Of a stretch of 36,170 nt of DNA, positions 3,624 to 36,170 are shown piece by piece. A program made the position numbers and the translations under genes. This DNA comes from PVC group bacterium (GTDB lineage: Bacteria; Verrucomicrobiota; Kiritimatiellia; PWTM01): NCBI GenBank assembly GCA_003563855.1, contig PWTM01000225.1, positions 1-36,170 on the forward strand. Reading direction: 5' to 3'. Numbering within the stretch: position 1 is the stretch's first letter; each line of letters starts with the position of its first letter. The notes below the pieces were generated by a model that was not told the origin of the DNA, ran no database searches, and saw only the letters and a program-made list of their open reading frames with translations.

Positions 3624-3905
3624 ATGCGCTACCGACACAGCAGCGGAATTCACGGCCAGACCGTCGGCGAGGAGCGCATGCTCTTCGACGACGCGGCCGA
3701 CGCGGTTCACGTCCTCAATGGAACCGCGGCCTTTATATGGGACTGCCTTCGCAAACCCGCTTCGGCGCACGGCATCGAGGTGCGGCTGCACGAGGTGTAC
3801 GACCTGCACGACGTGCCGGACGTGTCGGACATGATCGCCCGCACACTGGCGGACTTTCTGGATCGAGGCATCATCGAGCCGGTTCCGGACGAGGGCCACC
3901 CCTGA
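3624..3905 (+). CDS. PqqD family peptide-binding protein (RRE-like)
   Basis: MRYRHSSGIHGQTVGEERMLFDDAADAVHVLNGTAAFIWDCLRKP...DVSDMIARTLADFLDRGIIEPV: PqqD-like core (..LFD...VHVLN.TAAFIWDCL...). Confidence 0.8.
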   Translation: MRYRHSSGIHGQTVGEERMLFDDAADAVHVLNGTAAFIWDCLRKPASAHGIEVRLHEVYDLHDVPDVSDMIARTLADFLDRGIIEPVPDEGHP

Positions 3906-3914
3906 AGCGAATTC

Positions 3915-4319
3915 GGGCGCATCTCACTTCTGGCGGTCTCTGCCCGAAAGGCCTCGCGGCGGCTATCTTAGCATGTGCGCATGGCCATGCGTCGGCGCAC
4001 GAAAGGCGGACGGAGACGATTCTGCTTGCCCCGACTCGGTGGAGTTCGCGGCAAAGATAGCGTTGGAGTTCGTCTCGCCGGAGTTGTCGAGGCAATTAAC
4101 GAAGGAGGACGACCTTCAAACGCCTGGTGGGCGCTTCCGTATAGGAATGGATTCTCGTGCGGAAACGACATTGCGACCATTCTTCCCACGATTAACTACG
4201 GCGTCAACTTCCTCCTAAACTCCACCGGATCTAACGTGTCCGTCAACGTTGCCGCGAACTACATCGGCTCCCATGCCCCGTCCATGCGGGTGTTGCACCG
4301 CCCGAAGTGAGATGCGCCC
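3915..4319 (+). mobile_element. MITE-like element copy A, 405 bp
   Basis: Perfect 16-bp terminal inverted repeats GGGCGCATCTCACTTC...GAAGTGAGATGCGCCC; flanks AGCGAATTC/GGCGAATTC (9 bp, 8/9 identical); near-identical to 23526-23930. Confidence 0.9.
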
Positions 4320-4335
4320 GGCGAATTCCCGGGGC

Positions 4336-4364
4336 TTGACAGACGACCGACTTAACGGTAGAGG
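4336..4364 (+). promoter_or_regulatory. Candidate sigma70-type promoter of peptide gene 1
   Basis: TTGACA (4336-4341), 17-nt spacer, TAGAGG (4359-4364), 57 nt upstream of ATG 4422. Confidence 0.45.
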
Positions 4365-4421
4365 TTGAATGTGATCGGCGTCCGGGCGTCCGGGCGTAAC
4401 GAAGAAAGGCGGGGGGTGGCC

Positions 4422-4607
4422 ATGAACAGGAAGAAGCGGTTCGAGCCGCCGGTGATCTTGACCTACCGGCGCGAGGAACTGGTCGTAGAGACCGTGTTCA
4501 CCGGAGAGGATCCGTCGGAAGTCCTGGTCAGCGATCGGTGCCTGAAAAGGGACGTCCGCCCGGCCCGGGGTTGCGCGGTTCTGGATGCCGTGCTCCGCGT
4601 CGCCTGA
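4422..4607 (+). CDS. Leader-like short peptide 1 with C-terminal S74-start-like segment
   Basis: MNRKKRFEPPVILTYRREELVVETVFTGEDPSEVLVSDRCLKRDVRPARGCAVLDAVLRVA; N-terminal block shared with 10642-10758 and 16389-16514. Confidence 0.75.
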   Translation: MNRKKRFEPPVILTYRREELVVETVFTGEDPSEVLVSDRCLKRDVRPARGCAVLDAVLRVA

Positions 4608-4791
4608 CGGTGGCCGCGGTTCGCCTGTGAAGCGAACGCGCCGCGATGGGGTACGGCCGGTTGCCGGGATTTCCCGCGGCGCGGAGGGTGGATTTCTCCC
4701 CGAGGTTCCAGTGCCGGACGCGGCGAAGGTCTTCGCGGAACTCGGGCTCGGCACGGGGGAAGGTTCGGTTCATCCCGCGGATTCTTGCGGC

Positions 4792-4947
4792 ATGACACTC
4801 GGCGCCCTGCAGGAGCTTCTGGTGCGGGTCGAACGCCAGCGTCGGGCGATCCACCGTCTCTCGGCCCGTGTGGACCGGCTTCGCGCGGCGGAGTCCCGCC
4901 CGGTCCCATCGGCGACCGCGCGGGGAAGGGGGGCGGCCCGGCGATGA
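4792..4947 (+). CDS. Short coiled-coil-like protein
   Basis: MTLGALQELLVRVERQRRAIHRLSARVDRLRAAESRP...; its TGA overlaps the next ATG (ATGA at 4944-4947), suggesting coupling. Confidence 0.4.
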   Translation: MTLGALQELLVRVERQRRAIHRLSARVDRLRAAESRPVPSATARGRGAARR

Positions 4948-5342
4948 AGCGTCCGCAGTCCCGCACGCCGAAGGGGCCGGCCCGCACCGCGGTCGACCCG
5001 GCCGATATCCTGGAGCGGCTGGCTCGGCTTCGCATCCAGACGTGGAGTTACACCTTCGAGCCCGGGGTCCGCCACATCGGGCCGATGGCGCAGGAGTTCG
5101 CGGAGGTATTCGGCCTGGGCGGGGACGCCCGCCGGATCCGGCTGAACGACGCGATCGGTATCGCCTTTGCCGCGATCCGCGGCCTGCACGCGATGCTCGA
5201 GGAGAACGAGGCCCGGTTGACTGCGCTGCGCGCGGAACTGGAAGCGCTCCGCGGCGGCGTGCCGCGCCCGGGGCCCGGGAACATGGGCGGCGCCGGGCGC
5301 CGCGGCGGGAAGAAGCGCGCGCCTGGCGCGCCGCCCACCTGA
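4944..5342 (+). CDS. S74-type intramolecular-chaperone-like domain protein
   Basis: VDPADILERLARLRIQTWSYTFEPGVRHIGPMAQEFAEVFGLGGDARRIRLNDAIGIAFAAIRGLHAMLEENEARL matches the Peptidase_S74 pattern (ILERL..L.I.TW.Y....VRHIGPMAQ.F...FGLG......D..G.A.AAI.GL). Confidence 0.75.
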   Translation: MKRPQSRTPKGPARTAVDPADILERLARLRIQTWSYTFEPGVRHIGPMAQEFAEVFGLGGDARRIRLNDAIGIAFAAIRGLHAMLEENEARLTALRAELEALRGGVPRPGPGNMGGAGRRGGKKRAPGAPPT

Positions 5343-5349
5343 GGCCGAC

Positions 5350-6177
5350 GTGCCGATGGGAGAGCCCCACGTCCGTTCGGTTGAGGTTCGGTCGCCCGCT
5401 TCGCTTCCGGAGGCGATGGCGAAACTGGTCGCCGACCTGGACCCGGGCCTCCCGGCGGAATTCGCAGGCCGGCGCGTGCTGCTGAAGGCCAACTTCAACA
5501 GCCCGCACCGCTATCCGGCGACGAGCGCGCCCGAAGCGCTCGCGGCGCTGGTCGCGCTGCTGCGCTCCGCCGGGGCGGCGGAGATTCGCATCGGGGACAG
5601 TTGCGGACTGCGCTGGGCGCCGGCGGCGCGCGTGGCCGAGGCCCTGGGTGTGCCGGCGCTCGCCGCGCGGCTGGGCGTGGAATGGGTCGATTTCGATGCC
5701 GGCCCCTGGGTGGACGTGCCGGTCGGCGGGCGCTTCTTCCCGAAGGTCCGCCTCGCGGAGGCGGCGGTCCGGGCCGAGTGCATCGTCTACTGCTGCTGCG
5801 TGAAGACGCATCCGGCGGCCCGCTTCTCGGCGAGCCTGAAGCATGCGATCGGGTTCCTCGCGCCCGAGCAGCGCGCGGCGATGCACCGCGGTGACATGGC
5901 GGAGCGGATCGCGGAGATCAACGCCGCGGTCACGCCCCGCCTCGTCGTGGCCGACGCCCGCAAGTGCTTCGCGGCCGGCGGTCCCGCGGTCGGCTGGGTA
6001 CGGCGGTCGGGCCTGCTGCTGGCCTCGGCCGACCGGGTCGCGCTGGACTGCGAAGCCGTGCGCATCCTGCGCGGGTTCCGTCCGCGGCTGCACCGGTTGG
6101 CGGCCGATCCCGAGGACGAGCCGCAGATCCGCGCGGCCCGTGCGCTGCGCCTCGCCCCGGCGGGCGGCGGCTCGTGA
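5350..6177 (+). CDS. DUF362 family protein
   Basis: RRVLLKANFNSPHRYPATSAPEALAALVALLRSAGAAEIRIGDSCG...CIVYCCCVKTHPAARFSASLKHAIGFL resembles DUF362. Confidence 0.75.
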   Translation: MPMGEPHVRSVEVRSPASLPEAMAKLVADLDPGLPAEFAGRRVLLKANFNSPHRYPATSAPEALAALVALLRSAGAAEIRIGDSCGLRWAPAARVAEALGVPALAARLGVEWVDFDAGPWVDVPVGGRFFPKVRLAEAAVRAECIVYCCCVKTHPAARFSASLKHAIGFLAPEQRAAMHRGDMAERIAEINAAVTPRLVVADARKCFAAGGPAVGWVRRSGLLLASADRVALDCEAVRILRGFRPRLHRLAADPEDEPQIRAARALRLAPAGGGS

Positions 6178-7616
6178 ACGTCGCGCTCGTCGAGCTCGCG
6201 CCGCGTTCGCGCCTGCTGCGGGTTCCGCTCTGGTGGCCGGTCTACCTGCCCCAGCTCGCGGCCGTGCTGCGCGCCGGCGGGCACGCGGTCGAGATCCTGG
6301 AGCCGTGGGCGGACGGACCGGAGAGCGCCGCGCCGGAGCGGCTTTCCCGCGCGCTGCGCACGCGGCCGCCGGACCTGGTCGTCTTCGACGCCGGGGCGGA
6401 AGGGTGGGGCGCCCTGCGCGCCTGCGCCCGCGCAGCCCGGGCGACGGCGCCGTCCGCCCGATTGCTGGCCGGCGGCCGGTACGTTTCGCCGTGGCCGGCC
6501 GGCATCCTGGAACACGCGCCGGAATTGGATGCCTCGCTCGTCGGCGAGTCCGAACGCGCCGTCGAGGCGCTGGCGGACGGCGCCCCGCCGGCGTCGGTGG
6601 CCGGGGTCCACGTCCGCGGCGCCACGGCCGCGCAACCTTCGGCGCCGGTGCCCGATCTCGATGCGCTGCCGTTCCCGGCCTGGGATCTCCTGGACCTGCC
6701 GTACTACGCGCGGCGGACGCCGCGCGTGATCCCCTGCCTCCCGCTCCGGACCGCGACGTTGCAGAGCGCGCGCGGGTGCTCGGGCGCGTGCCGCTTCTGC
6801 GTCGAGGGCCGCCTGCACGCGCGGCCGCACCGGTTTCACGGCGCGGCCTACGTGGTCGAGGCGGTGGAACGGCTGGCGGTCACCCACGGCATCGAGGCGC
6901 TGTACTTCTCCGACGAGAGCTTCCTCGCCGACCGCGCGCGCGTCGCCGGGCTCTGCGAGGCCCTGTTGCGGAGCCCGGTCGCGCGGCGGCTGCGCTGGGC
7001 GGCCCAGGTGCGCGCGGACACGGTGGATGCCGAAATCCTGGCGCTGATGCGCCGGGCCGGCTGCGTCCAGCTCGAGTTCGGCGTCGAGAGCGGATCGGAC
7101 CGGATGCTGGCCGCCCTGGGCAAGGGGCTCGATGCCGCGCGGAACCGCACCGCGCTGCGGCTTGCGCGCGCAGCCGGCATTCGCTCGCTGGCCTACGTCA
7201 TGGTGGGCCTGCCGGACGAGACGCGCGAGGATCTCGCATGCACCCGCCGGTTCCTCGCCGAGGCCCGTCCGGATGTCGTCCGCCTCAACCCGTACATGAT
7301 CCTCCCCGGCACCCCGCTGGCGGGCCGGCTGGCGGCGGAAGGCCGAATTCCGCCGGACGGACCCGGCGGCGCCGATCGGGCGCTGACCGCGTTGTCCGGC
7401 GAGGCGACGAACGTCACCGCGATGCCACTCGGGGAGCTGCGTGCGGCGGTCCGACAGCTCGAACGCGAGGCGGTGCTCGCCCGGCTCGCGCGGGATTTCC
7501 TCGTTCACAATCCGCCCTGGGCGCTGGCGCGCTACTTCCGGGTGCGCGCGGTGCCGGCCTGGATCCGGCACAGGCGGCGCGGGCCGGGCGCGCGACCGGC
7601 GCCACTCCGCGGCTGA
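6174..7616 (+). CDS. B12-binding-type radical SAM protein
   Basis: GTG start overlaps upstream TGA. CxxxCxxC motif SARGCSGACRFC; N-terminal half LPQLAAVLRAGGHAVEILE...; VQLEFGVESGSDRML. Confidence 0.85.
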   Translation: MNVALVELAPRSRLLRVPLWWPVYLPQLAAVLRAGGHAVEILEPWADGPESAAPERLSRALRTRPPDLVVFDAGAEGWGALRACARAARATAPSARLLAGGRYVSPWPAGILEHAPELDASLVGESERAVEALADGAPPASVAGVHVRGATAAQPSAPVPDLDALPFPAWDLLDLPYYARRTPRVIPCLPLRTATLQSARGCSGACRFCVEGRLHARPHRFHGAAYVVEAVERLAVTHGIEALYFSDESFLADRARVAGLCEALLRSPVARRLRWAAQVRADTVDAEILALMRRAGCVQLEFGVESGSDRMLAALGKGLDAARNRTALRLARAAGIRSLAYVMVGLPDETREDLACTRRFLAEARPDVVRLNPYMILPGTPLAGRLAAEGRIPPDGPGGADRALTALSGEATNVTAMPLGELRAAVRQLEREAVLARLARDFLVHNPPWALARYFRVRAVPAWIRHRRRGPGARPAPLRG

Positions 7617-7648
7617 CGAATGCAGGCGGCATCGCTATCGTCCGGACG

Positions 7649-8839
7649 ATGAGTACACGGGAGGAACTGGAGAGCGTTGACCTGGCGCCCGGCGCGCGCG
7701 CCGAGGCGGCGGCGCGCTGCACCGCGACATTCGACTTCGCGATACTCGGCGGCCGGGTGCGGCTGCGCACCAATGTGCCGGACGTCCTGGGCGGCTTCCT
7801 TCGCACCTACGCGACGTTTGCGCAGCCGACCGATTCGGCCGCGCCGGCCGACCTCGAGATCGTCGCGGTCCGGCCGCCGGGCGCCGGACCCGAACTGCTC
7901 TTCCTGGCGCGCGACCGCGCCTACCGGACGGCGTATCCGCGGCTGGTCGCGGATCCCGAACCGGTGATCGAGTATCTCGCAGTCACCCACAACCGGTCCC
8001 ATTACCTGGTCCACGCCGGCTGCGTCAGCCGGGCCGGCCGCGGCCTCGCGATCGCCGGCGCTTCGCGCATGGGCAAGACCACGCTCACCGCCTTCCTCGT
8101 CGCGCGCGGCTTCCGCTACCTCTCCGACGAGGTCGCGCCCGTCTCGCGTGCCGACGGAACCCTCTCGCCCTATCCGCTCGCGCTGGGCATCCGGGCCGGT
8201 CCCGCCTCGGCCCTGGTCGCAGACCTGCCGTACACGGAGTTCGTCAGCGAGACGGACCGGAAGGCGATGGTGAACGCCTGCGACTTCACGCCGGCCATCG
8301 CGCAGGCGCCCGTGCCGCTGCACGCGGTTGTGTTCCTCACGAACCGGGTGGCGCCCGACGTTCGTACGCCGCACCGCTTCGACGGCAAGGCGTCCGTGTG
8401 GTTCAACGCGATGAACCCGGCGTTCCGCGCCGCGGTGCTCGAGCGGACGGGGTCGGAACGGCTGGCCGAGCGCAGCATCGGAGACCAGGTTCACGTACTG
8501 ACCCTGCGCAGCCGCGCGCCCGACGGCTTCCTGGACGCGCTGCGGGCCGTGGCCCGGACGCACGGCATCGGGATCGTATGGATGCAGGTCGAAGATCTCG
8601 ATCCCGCCGACTTCGATGCGGCGCCGCGTCTATTGCGGCTCCCCATCGCGGTTGGACTGGTCGAGCTGATCAAGAAGCTCCCGTCCAGCCAGAAGGCCGA
8701 GCTTGTGCGGACGCAGTTCGGCGGGCGGATGACGGGCCTCGTCGGGGAACTCGCGCGGCGGGTCGGCCACGCGGCCTTCTACAAGCTCTCGCCGGGCCGG
8801 CTGGAAGCCATGGTCGAAACGCTCGAGCGCCTCGCATGA
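7649..8839 (+). CDS. HPr-kinase/phosphorylase-like (HprK-like) protein
   Basis: YLVHAGCVSRAGRGLAIAGASRMGKTTLTAFLVARGFRYLSDEVAPV: HprK-like P-loop and downstream motif. Confidence 0.75.
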   Translation: MSTREELESVDLAPGARAEAAARCTATFDFAILGGRVRLRTNVPDVLGGFLRTYATFAQPTDSAAPADLEIVAVRPPGAGPELLFLARDRAYRTAYPRLVADPEPVIEYLAVTHNRSHYLVHAGCVSRAGRGLAIAGASRMGKTTLTAFLVARGFRYLSDEVAPVSRADGTLSPYPLALGIRAGPASALVADLPYTEFVSETDRKAMVNACDFTPAIAQAPVPLHAVVFLTNRVAPDVRTPHRFDGKASVWFNAMNPAFRAAVLERTGSERLAERSIGDQVHVLTLRSRAPDGFLDALRAVARTHGIGIVWMQVEDLDPADFDAAPRLLRLPIAVGLVELIKKLPSSQKAELVRTQFGGRMTGLVGELARRVGHAAFYKLSPGRLEAMVETLERLA

Positions 8840-10551
8840 GCGGCGTTCCCGAGACGGGCCTGGCGACGCCGGAGTTCGTTCGTACGTCCGGCCGCAGCAT
8901 GTGGCCGCTCATCCGACACGGCGCGCTCATCGCCCTTCGTCCCGCGACTCCCGAGACGGTGACCCCGGGCGAGATCGTCGCTTTCCGCCGGGACGGCCGG
9001 CTCTTCGCACACCGCCTGTTGGCCGTCCGCCGCGGGGCGGGCGGGTTCGAACTGCGCGAGAAGGGCGACCACAACCGCGGCGCTTCCTGGATCGAGGGCG
9101 ACCGGCTGGTCGGCGCGGCCGTCGAGTTGCGCGAGGGTCCTTGCCGACGGTCGTTGGGCGTCGATCCGCGCGGCCGCCGTATCCGGTGGCTGACCGCGCT
9201 CCTGCGCCTCGAGGCCGACCTCGTCGAGCGCTGGATCCGCGTGCGCTTGCGAGGTGGCGCGCCGGCCCGGCTCCGCCCGCTGCTGCTCCCGGCCGCGCTG
9301 CTCCTGGCGCCGGCGCGCGCCCTGCTGGTCCGGCTGCTGCTGACCGCCTACCCGCGGCCGACCACGGTCGAGGACGCCGGCGCGCTGGTCGCGCTGGTCC
9401 GTTCTTTCCGGGCGCTGTTCCCCGGCGCCCGGGCGGAGGGCGACGCCGAAGCCGGAACCGTACCCGGCGATGGCGTCGCGCTGATCGAGGCGGCCGCGGC
9501 GCACGGCCTCGTGCCGTCGCTCGTCGCCGTCGGATCGCTGCCGCCCACCCTCGCGCGGGCGGTGCGCCGGCAGTCCTACCGCACGGCGCTCGACCACGAG
9601 CGCGCGAAGCCGGCGTTGCGGTCGGCGACCCGCGCGCTGGATGCGGCCGGCGTTCCCTACGCGGTGCTCAAGGGGCCCGCCCTCTACGAGGCCTTCTACC
9701 GGGACCGGTTCCCTCGCGCGTACTGCGATCTCGACCTGCTCGTTCCGCGCGACCGGATCGAGGTCGCGCTTGCCGCACTGGCCGGGGCGGGGTACGCGGT
9801 GGAGGGGGGGGCGCGCCGGCAGGCCTTTCTCCGCCGTTTCCACTTCCACCTCGCGCTGACCTCGCCGCGGCCCGGCTGGCCGCCGATCGAGCTGCACTGG
9901 GCCCTGGTCGACCGCGCCAACCTCTACCGGTTACCCGCCGACGCGGGCCTGGCGCGGCGGCAAACCCTGGGCGCCGGGGACGATGCCTTCGCCGTGCTCG
10001 AACCCGGGGATGCGCTGCTCTACCTCTGCCTCCATGTCGCCAAGCACGCCCCCTTCAACGCGAACGGCCTTCGCCGCGGCGTCGGCGCCGAGTGGTTCAT
10101 CCGGGCTTCCGTCGGCAACCGCCTGCTCTGGTTCGCCGATATCGCCCTGCTGCTCGAACGCGCATTCGACCGGTTCGACTGGCCGGAACTGCGTCGCCGG
10201 GCGCGGGACTGGAATACCACCGAAGATGTCGGGGTCACGCTGCGGGTCCTGCACCTTCTCGCGCCCGGTTCGCGCGCGGGCGCGGCGCTCGAACGGCTGG
10301 GCCTTCCCGCCGTGGCGCCGGTGCGGATGCGGCGGCGGGCGTGGTCCGGCGCGGGGCCCGCGCCGGAGTGGGCCCTGCGCATGAACCCCGTCGTGCTCTT
10401 CCGCCCGATCCGGGTCCTGCTGGCCTTCCGCCTGCTGTTCCCCCCGCCGGGCCGGCTCCTCGCATACTACGCCGGCGTCTCGCGATGGCGGTTGCCCCTG
10501 CTCGTCCTGGTCCATCCGTTCCACATGGCCGGCCGGCTCCTGCGGAAGTAG
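8836..10551 (+). CDS. S26 signal-peptidase-like domain fused to NTP_transf_5-type nucleotidyltransferase
   Basis: ATGA overlap with upstream gene. N-term GRSMWPLIRHGALIALRP...FAHRLLAVRR...EKGDHN (SipW/Sec11-like); C-term YAVLKGPALYEAFYRDRFPRAYCDLDLLVP...IELHWALVDR (NTP_transf_5). Confidence 0.75.
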   Translation: MSGVPETGLATPEFVRTSGRSMWPLIRHGALIALRPATPETVTPGEIVAFRRDGRLFAHRLLAVRRGAGGFELREKGDHNRGASWIEGDRLVGAAVELREGPCRRSLGVDPRGRRIRWLTALLRLEADLVERWIRVRLRGGAPARLRPLLLPAALLLAPARALLVRLLLTAYPRPTTVEDAGALVALVRSFRALFPGARAEGDAEAGTVPGDGVALIEAAAAHGLVPSLVAVGSLPPTLARAVRRQSYRTALDHERAKPALRSATRALDAAGVPYAVLKGPALYEAFYRDRFPRAYCDLDLLVPRDRIEVALAALAGAGYAVEGGARRQAFLRRFHFHLALTSPRPGWPPIELHWALVDRANLYRLPADAGLARRQTLGAGDDAFAVLEPGDALLYLCLHVAKHAPFNANGLRRGVGAEWFIRASVGNRLLWFADIALLLERAFDRFDWPELRRRARDWNTTEDVGVTLRVLHLLAPGSRAGAALERLGLPAVAPVRMRRRAWSGAGPAPEWALRMNPVVLFRPIRVLLAFRLLFPPPGRLLAYYAGVSRWRLPLLVLVHPFHMAGRLLRK

Positions 10552-10565
10552 CCTCGCTGCCGCGC

Positions 10566-10594
10566 TTGACACGCACGGGCGAATGCGCGACAAA
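10566..10594 (+). promoter_or_regulatory. Candidate promoter of peptide gene 2
   Basis: TTGACA at 10566-10571; weak -10 candidate GACAAA after 17 nt; hairpin AAGGCCA-TGTT-TGGCCTT at 10601-10618 in the leader. Confidence 0.3.
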
Positions 10595-10641
10595 GGATGA
10601 AAGGCCATGTTTGGCCTTCCACCAGCCGGGGAGCGGAAGAC

Positions 10642-10758
10642 ATGAAAGAGAAGAGGCGCTTCGAGCCACCGAAGATCGAAACATTCCGGCGCGACGAGCT
10701 CATCGTCGAGACGGCGTTCACCGGGGTCGTCATGAAGTCCCCGGTGTTCCGCGACTAA
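10642..10758 (+). CDS. Leader-like short peptide 2
   Basis: MKEKRRFEPPKIETFRRDELIVETAFTGVVMKSPVFRD (38 aa), purine-rich GGGGAGCGGAAG upstream; not in the supplied ORF list because of length. Confidence 0.75.
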   Translation: MKEKRRFEPPKIETFRRDELIVETAFTGVVMKSPVFRD

Positions 10759-16388: not shown

Positions 16389-16514
16389 ATGCAAGAGAAG
16401 AAACGCTTCGAACCGCCGAAGGTCGAGACGTTCCGGAGCGACGAGTTGATCGTCGAGACGGCGTTCACCGGGGAGGTGTGGATCGACTCGCCACCCAACG
16501 ACGTCCCGGTGTAA
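16389..16514 (+). CDS. Leader-like short peptide 3
   Basis: MQEKKRFEPPKVETFRSDELIVETAFTGEVWIDSPPNDVPV (41 aa); N-terminal block shared with peptides 1 and 2. Confidence 0.75.
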   Translation: MQEKKRFEPPKVETFRSDELIVETAFTGEVWIDSPPNDVPV

Positions 16515-22310: not shown

Positions 22311-22574
22311 GGGCGTATCTCACTTCTGCCGGCGCATATACCGCATTGACGGGGCCTGGGGCCGATGTAGTTCGCGGCAAAGTTGACGGATACTGCCTCG
22401 ACAACTCCTGCGAGACCAACTCCAACGCTATCTTTGCCGCGAACTCCACCGAGTCGGGGCAAGCAGAACCGTCTCCGTCGGCCTTTCGTGCTTCGGCGCA
22501 TTGCACAATGCCCACATGCTAAGATAGCCGGGGCCAGGCATTTCGGGCAGAGACCGCCAGAAGTGAGATGCGCC
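22311..22574 (-). mobile_element. MITE-like element copy C, internally deleted, 264 bp, inverted
   Basis: GGGCGTATCTCACTTC...GAAGTGAGATGCGCCC ends; exact 9-bp duplication GCTCGTGAT at 22302-22310 and 22575-22583; reverse complement of copies A/B with about 141 bp net loss. Confidence 0.9.
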
Positions 22575-22583
22575 CGCTCGTGA

Positions 22584-23525: not shown

Positions 23526-23930
23526 GGGCGCATCTCACTTCTGGCGGTCTCTGCCCGAAATGCCTCGCGGCGGCCATCTTAGCCTGTGCGCATGGTCATG
23601 CGCCGGAGCACGAAAGGCCGACGGAGACGATTCTGCTTGCCCCGACTCGGTGGAGTTCGCGGCAAAGATAGCGTTGGAGTTAGTCTCGCAGGAGTTGTCG
23701 AGGCAGTTAGCGAAGGAGGTCGACCTTCAAACGCCTGGTGGGCGCTTCCGTATAGGAATGGATTCTCGTGCGGAAACGACATCGCGACCATTCTTCCCAC
23801 GATCAACTACGGCGTCAACTTCCTCGTAAACTCCACTGGATCTAACGTGTCCGTCAACGTTGCCGCGAACTACATCGGCTCCCATGCCCCGTCCATGCGG
23901 GTGATGCACCGCCCGAAGTGAAATGCGCCC
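23526..23930 (+). mobile_element. MITE-like element copy B, 405 bp
   Basis: GGGCGCATCTCACTTC...GAAGTGAAATGCGCCC ends; exact 9-bp duplication GCCGGTGGG at 23517-23525 and 23931-23939; same length as copy A. Confidence 0.9.
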
Positions 23931-29913: not shown

Positions 29914-30240
29914 TATGCGGGTAAGAGTATACGGGTAAGCATGCGGGTAAGCGGTTACGGGTAAGATTGGGCGGGTAAGAGTGGGAAGGTGCTTCTTCGC
30001 GTGGCGGGCATGCTTGCGGCGTCTTCTAAGGCGGTAGCCAGTAAATGACACTCGAACCCCCTTACCCGAACCCCTTTGCCGAACCCCCTTACCCGCATAC
30101 CCTTACCCGCATACCCTTACCCGCATACCCTTACCCGAACCCCCTTACCCGCATACCCTTACCCGCATACCCTTACCCGACCACCCTTACCCGCATACCC
30201 TTACCCGCATACTCTTACCCGACCACCCTTACCCGATCCG
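29914..30240. repeat. Inverted array of 14-bp CTTACCCGNNNNCC units
   Basis: Left arm about five inverted (GGGTAAG) units at 29914-29983; right arm about 13 units at 30061-30240 with exact 14-bp period (CTTACCCGCATACC, CTTACCCGAACCCC, CTTACCCGACCACC). Confidence 0.85.
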
Positions 30241-30321
30241 TTTGCGCTGCTTCCGCTATAGCTTTAGCGACGGGGGAAGCCCCGTCAGTGAACGGTTGTC
30301 CCGTCTCGGAACTCAGGAAGT

Positions 30322-35925: not shown

Positions 35926-35982
35926 TCCCCGCTCGCTCTCCTGGTAAGGATTTCGAGCACGAGGAGGAGGCCCGCGCCCCCC

Positions 35983-36080
35983 ATCGTAGTCGCAGTCCTA
36001 GTCCCAATCGTAGTCTTCGACCGCCCCCGCCCGGCTCCACGCCATACCGACTACGATTGCGATTACGACTGTGACTACGA
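35983..36080. repeat. GTAGTC/GACTAC hexamer hairpin
   Basis: TCGTAGTCGCAGTCCTAGTCCCAATCGTAGTC ... GGCTCCACGCCATACC ... GACTACGATTGCGATTACGACTGTGACTACGA. Confidence 0.88.
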
Positions 36081-36097
36081 GGCTTGCGCCTTCTCCT

Positions 36098-36170
36098 CAT
36101 CGTAGTCGCAGTCCTAGTCCCAATCGTAGTCTTCGCCTCTCCCCGCACGGCTCCACGCCATCCCGACTAC
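36098..36170. repeat. GTAGTC/GACTAC hexamer hairpin, cut by window end
   Basis: TCGTAGTCGCAGTCCTAGTCCCAATCGTAGTCTTCG ... GGCTCCACGCCATCCCGACTAC. Confidence 0.85.

Follow-up and report, generated by a model that had tools for sequence, protein, structure and literature searches.

A putative split, heteromeric S74 autocleavage module on a RiPP-like precursor peptide

Results

The stretch of DNA analysed here (the window, 36,170 nucleotides of a draft bacterial genome of 3.27 Mb in 370 contigs) encodes a precursor-like peptide whose C-terminus resembles the opening of an S74 domain, together with two genes that match other parts of the same domain. On balance, we read the locus as a split, heteromeric S74 (intramolecular-chaperone autocleavage) module on one RiPP-like precursor, with the peptide cut in trans. 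Put more broadly, several proteins probably assemble into one domain that cuts the peptide, or holds it.

An earlier note had drawn attention to two ORFs, and both are found where it placed them: peptide 1 at 4422-4607 and gene 3 at 4944-5342, both on the forward strand. Peptide 1 has 61 residues if it starts at the ATG at 4422 (a TTG at 4365 would lengthen the ORF) and consists of a precursor-like leader (MNRKKRFEPPVILTYRREELVVETVFTGEDPSEVLV), of a family present in three genomes, fused to the S74 opening (SDRCLKRDVRPARGCAVLDAVLRVA); the assignment uses the leader family, the opening profile described below and a homolog in another genome, G017. The opening (4530..4604, forward strand), delimited by profiles and an AlphaFold2 model, reads SDRCLKRDVRP...VLDAVL and comprises a predicted cut before Ser (V|SD), the Ser37-Lys42 dyad and the start of helix alpha-1. 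Its Ser and Lys lie five residues apart, which is, as the note had it, the published spacing (MyRF S587/K592, equivalent to endoNF S911/K916; PMC8326128).

Peptide 1 has no Pfam match at E<=1, and neither Pfam nor NCBIfam detects S74 in peptide 1 or gene 2, so custom profiles were used instead. They were built from 54 reference S74 domains (13 from the class, 41 from viral contigs), extracted with a pattern that demands S and K in the class and S or C and K in the viral contigs; a few S74 loci outside the pattern were omitted. Position 1 of these domains is Ser in 50 of the 54 and Cys in four, and position 6 is Lys in all 54, partly by construction of the pattern. A profile of the first 14 residues of these ordinary S74 domains was run on the window's 311 ORFs of 25 residues or more. 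Peptide 1 came out on top (6.8 bits, E 0.23; the runner-up ORF has 2.1 bits), and on the full S74 profile it reaches 2.8 bits, the highest of 500 shuffles reaching 1.4. Taken alone, this is a weak match. The G017 homolog scores 21.1 bits (E 4.8e-6) on the opening profile. An S74 profile thus covers the peptide weakly in the window and clearly in G017. Among the viral contigs, the S74 domains of L065, L069, L071 and L087 carry Cys at the position of the catalytic Ser (e.g. CDxNxK), which suggests that they are Cys-Lys variants.

Gene 3 (4944..5342, forward strand; ...VDPADILERLARLRIQTWSYTFEPGVRHIGPMAQEF...) is an S74 domain without an intact Ser-Lys dyad. It matches PF13884 at 31.4 bits (cut-off 22) over profile positions 14-53 of 58, the first 13 positions being absent, is the only match to this family in the whole genome, and scores 97.6 bits on the full S74 profile. 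Its start can be aligned in two plausible ways, of which QSRTPK against SDRNLK loses the Ser and SRTPKG loses the Lys; the S-D-x-x-x-K pattern is thus missing from gene 3 in either case, as the note had stated, and a Ser and a Lys five apart are found not on the chain that carries the rest of the domain but on peptide 1. The W-x-Y at the place of MyRF Y615/Y617 is kept by gene 3 of both genomes (window and G017).

Between the two ORFs, in the +1 frame, lies gene 2 (4627..4947, forward strand), whose start is uncertain (an ATG at 4585 is possible) and which overlaps gene 3 by ATGA. The S74 profile and a G017 homolog identify it as the part of an S74 domain that follows the HIGPMAQ motif, its C-terminal half, with a coiled-coil tail; gene 2 matches profile positions 49-101 at 20.9 bits against a shuffle maximum of 3.5. 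The proposal that the remainder of the domain lies downstream therefore holds for gene 3, but the two-part picture that went with it overlooked gene 2, and the locus has three parts. Of the two ORFs that were to be aligned to PF13884, gene 3 is matched and peptide 1 is not.

AlphaFold2 was run on two chains, gene 3 alone and a read-through of peptide 1, linker and gene 3, in which the TGA was read as Trp merely to join the pieces (30-row alignment A5). In the read-through model, peptide residues 31-50 have a pLDDT of 71-88 with strands at 34-36 and 42-47, gene 3 from its first helix has 85-97, and the linker is mostly disordered. Gene 3 alone reaches 89.8 overall, with 56 for its own start and shorter strands. 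The model thus docks the peptide strand onto gene 3, which speaks for compatibility, not binding, as the alignment holds intact S74 domains and the link is artificial. The four best VIA-align matches of the model are all S74 structures (7dc3, 3gw6, 4uw8 and 3gud, Z 5.0-6.5): the MyRF ICA (7dc3) matches at Z 6.5 over 86 residues at 1.8 A, with the gene 3 part aligned onto residues 597-705, just past the dyad strand; endoNF (3gw6) matches at Z 6.0 over the model range 25-267; T5 (4uw8) and GA-1 (3gud) complete the four. These Z values are moderate, and the S74 claim rests on the sequence match. Lower-ranking entries, the flagellar hook among them, have Z<=3.3 and were treated as unrelated.

The three genes lie in a RiPP-like cluster, in the order PqqD-like gene, peptide 1, genes 2 and 3, DUF362, B12-radical SAM, HprK-like and S24/nucleotidyltransferase, followed by peptides 2 and 3. 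The PqqD-like RiPP recognition element (3624..3905, forward strand, as are all the window genes given here) matches PF05402 above its cut-off (25.0 bits) and TIGR04353 at 30.5 bits, under the curated cut-off of 35; its sequence relates it to the PqqD of the HPr-rel-A system (TIGR04353), without making it an assigned member. It is 54% and 47% identical to the PqqD of sister clusters in G017 and in a further genome, G342. The DUF362 protein (5350..6177; PF04015, E 9.7e-42) has 62% identity with its G342 homolog, and the B12-binding radical SAM enzyme (6174..7616; PF04055 and PF02310) has 46-48% with the enzymes of both sister clusters. The HPr-kinase-like protein (7649..8839; PF07475 at 20.7 bits, under the cut-off of 33.3) also has counterparts in both. 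An S24/signal-peptidase-like domain fused to a nucleotidyltransferase (PF14907; 8839..10551), assigned from domain matches and the G017 homolog, is 39% identical to the latter. Short leader-sharing precursors thus stand beside a recognition element (PqqD) and a modifying enzyme (B12-radical SAM), with three leader peptides in the window and two and four short peptides in the sister clusters; peptide 1 is probably an enzyme-modified peptide. Neither of the lasso hallmarks (an asparagine-synthetase-like cyclase, a B2 transglutaminase-like protease) was recognised among the ORFs read in 3624-10758.

Peptide 2 (10642..10758; MKEKRRFEPPKIETFRRDELIVETAFTGVVMKSPVFRD) and peptide 3 (16389..16514; MQEKKRFEPPKVETFRSDELIVETAFTGEVWIDSPPNDVPV) belong to the leader family and have the leader only, with no S74 opening. 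Peptide 3 lies about 5.7 kb beyond peptide 2, outside the main gene cluster; the leader DNA of the two is 87% identical, that of peptides 1 and 2 75%. The G342 cluster comprises PqqD, two leader-only peptides, DUF362, B12-radical SAM and HprK-like genes, with no S74 genes between them, and contig C65 of G017 carries PqqD, four short peptides, radical SAM, HprK-like and S24/nucleotidyltransferase genes. Since the peptides of both these clusters end without the S74 piece, we regard the piece as an optional addition to one peptide. The S74-less peptides have 31-41 residues, and the predicted V36|S37 cut of peptide 1 would leave 36.

Several repeats were observed in the window. An element of about 300 bp between the PqqD gene and peptide 1 (3915-4214) has a 95% identical copy 19.6 kb downstream (23526-23825), as well as partial inverted copies (22392-22576), and is possibly a small mobile repeat. 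A tandem array of a 14-nt unit (ACCCTTACCCGCAT-like) occupies 30043-30252, and the window ends in a 76-nt direct repeat (35979-36054 and 36095-36170, 91% identical).

A search for relatives found the trio in one other genome of the class, G017, which belongs to a different family; the three homologous genes follow one another as in the window on its contig C27 (L007), which is small and has none of the cluster enzymes. The G017 peptide (MSKDKQPDFSKPELDTYEADELVVDIAFTQGGSQQPA-SDRNLKENLEPIDRKALLD-GPLVASFDRDDLVVDATFTAAIYNPGN) has its S74 opening, SDRNLKENLEP, sandwiched between two leader units (L007:2019-2270), so that cleavage may yield two products, and it ends in AAIYNPGN, a terminus of the family type (compare VDYNPGG). 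The Pfam S74 model is matched by this peptide at positions 1-17 (13.3 bits, under the cut-off). The gene for the C-terminal half encodes 73 residues and overlaps gene 3 by ATGA, as in the window; its further matches are to the C-terminal ends of large proteins encoded on plasmids, for most of which the annotation is 'tail fiber domain'. Gene 3 (104 residues, starting MNDGNAREKQAPVDP; PF13884, 40.5 bits) has NDGNAR at the place of the dyad (Ser to Asn, Lys to Arg). On the full S74 profile the peptide, gene 2 and gene 3 of G017 score 12.5, 40.3 and 118.4 bits, with shuffle maxima of 1.4-7.5 bits for the peptide and gene 2 sequences of the two genomes. In each genome, therefore, the peptide has retained the dyad and gene 3 has not, and this division, with the remainder of the domain encoded in trans, is, as far as the sequences tell, conserved in another family.

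Gene 3 is 42% identical between the window and G017, comparable to the cluster enzymes (radical SAM 46%, PqqD 54%, S24/nucleotidyltransferase 39%). The amino-acid identity of the trio is about 4-7 times the codon-shuffled mean and higher than in all 1000 shuffles. The S74 strands of the two peptides share 9 of 20 residues, with the spacing of the dyad Ser and Lys kept. Values of pN and pS are 0.44 and 0.77 for the peptide, 0.52 and 0.80 for gene 2, and 0.40 and 0.62 for gene 3, pN being below pS throughout, with pS near saturation and a base composition that differs between the genomes. This case for conservation and selection is a single pairwise comparison of the window with G017 and not a family-wide test. 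Of the more than 700 genomes of the phylum that were sampled (the samples overlap), only two have the trio. The order of G017 is represented by one genome, which made a search there uninformative; in the class of G371, S74 openings were found only inside large ORFs (523 and 1386 residues), and no relative of the peptide turned up when plasmids and viral contigs were searched. The only match of the contig scan, L005, was rejected as neither an S74 nor a leader gene, the coding frame there being on the opposite strand or part of an ORF unrelated to them.

Discussion

We lean towards a trans-complemented S74 peptidase-chaperone in RiPP biosynthesis, in which the peptide brings the dyad, two S74-derived partners complete the active site, and processing occurs only inside the complex. 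The N-terminal strand (the 'cable'), with the catalytic Ser and Lys, would come from peptide 1, which would also provide the beginning of helix alpha-1. Gene 3, whose own dyad is lost, would contribute the remainder of the fold together with the W-x-Y/HIGPMAQ 'donut', and gene 2 may contribute only the C-terminal half and the coiled coil. In MyRF, the cable with the cut site comes from a neighbouring subunit and threads the donut, S587 and K592 are essential, and the trimer is needed for cleavage (PMC8326128). By analogy, we would expect the peptide, gene 2 and gene 3 to form a mixed trimer, whose active site would be completed by the strand of the peptide, with cleavage falling between Val36 and Ser37. 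The cut would free a 36-residue leader-family peptide of a length like that of its S74-less sisters; the complex, the cut and its timing relative to the radical SAM step are what we infer. It is because the three genes divide the MyRF-like roles (cable and dyad, donut, coiled-coil half) that we favour cleavage by trans-complementation, also the better of the two readings offered by the earlier note, given that the split is conserved in G017 with identity and frames comparable to those of the cluster enzymes. The support in hand consists of sequence homology, the conserved split, the complementary loss of dyad and donut, and the strand-docking model.

The main rival, to which we give a minor share of the probability, is docking without cutting: the S74 strand would serve as a handle by which a chaperone trimer of genes 2 and 3 takes up the precursor, so that it can be modified, protected or exported, and any cleavage would be incidental. 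The architecture would be identical, S74 domains are chaperones as well as proteases, and the G017 strand lies between two leader units rather than at the terminus, as a linker or handle might. However, both peptides keep Ser and Lys at the exact spacing despite the divergence of the strand, which a pure handle need not do.

The second reading of the earlier note was a decayed fusion. In the form considered here, a leader-S74 ancestor and a tandem copy of S74 would be breaking down into fragments without joint function, which we consider improbable. Gene 2 is indeed a truncated S74 domain, the middle of the domain is missing even when peptide 1 and gene 2 are combined, and peptide 1 by itself matches S74 weakly. 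Yet the gene order and similar fragment boundaries recur in a distant genome with open frames and pN below pS, the trio is about as conserved as the cluster enzymes, and the G017 peptide has a proper family terminus, with the gene 2 frame opening only past the stop of the peptide. Decay is unlikely to have produced similar boundaries at such depth and left the peptide terminus intact. The note had named a single uninterrupted S74 ORF in homologs as evidence against a split, and this is excluded by the G017 locus, which is split and in which fusion by frameshift is impossible.

The window alone would allow a programmed frameshift or stop read-through to join the pieces into one S74 protein, as only one stop codon, a TGA, separates peptide 1 from gene 3 within a shared frame, and the frame of gene 2 has no stop from 4546 on and so overlaps peptide 1. 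We think this very unlikely. The G017 peptide ends at 2270 and the gene 2 frame is open only from 2291, with an in-frame stop between that rules out a frameshift fusion with gene 2; the peptide and gene 3 of G017 are in different frames; and the linker that read-through would translate in the window is an out-of-frame translation of gene 2. Chance resemblance of the opening, conceivable from the low score and missing Pfam match of peptide 1, is effectively refuted, since peptide 1 adjoins the sole S74 gene found in the genome and its G017 homolog has the element at the same place, with 21.1 bits and beside an S74 gene.

If trans-complemented cleavage is correct, the locus would be a natural split protease whose substrate carries the catalytic residues, an S74 domain would be able to act as a heteromeric maturation machine, and an unexpected maturation route would be added to RiPP biosynthesis. 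So far, S74 domains have been known from phage fibres and MyRF, as trimerisation chaperones that consist of one chain and cleave themselves, and in the open literature we found no report of S74 in a RiPP system, nor of Peptidase_S74 with PqqD or radical SAM. The three-part system offers a ready test of trans S74 cleavage between subunits, which the MyRF structure suggests.

Three known systems invite comparison. The PqqD/HPr-kinase/radical SAM RiPP clusters (HPr-rel-A, TIGR04353) share with the window the PqqD-like, HprK-like, nucleotidyltransferase and radical SAM genes and short leader peptides with a FxPPxxxT[FY]-like motif; here, in contrast, an S74 opening is found on one of the precursors, which is accompanied by two partner genes derived from S74. 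The Peptidase_S74/ICA domains of phage tailspikes and fibres (endoNF 3GW6, GA-1 neck appendage 3GUD, T5 pb1 4UW8) have the fold of gene 3, the SDxxxK dyad strand of the peptide and a C-terminal coiled coil, but each of them is one chain that releases itself from a homotrimeric fibre by its own cut, whereas here the dyad strand, the C-terminal half and the main domain are encoded by different genes, and it is a peptide of 61 residues that bears the dyad. The MyRF/MrfA ICA (7DC3; PMC8326128, PMC3742443, PMC3828593) is likewise a reuse of S74 outside phages, with Ser and Lys five apart; its domain is intact within one membrane transcription factor and forms a homotrimer, unlike the split locus described here, for which we propose the same cutting of the cable of one subunit within the donut of its neighbour.
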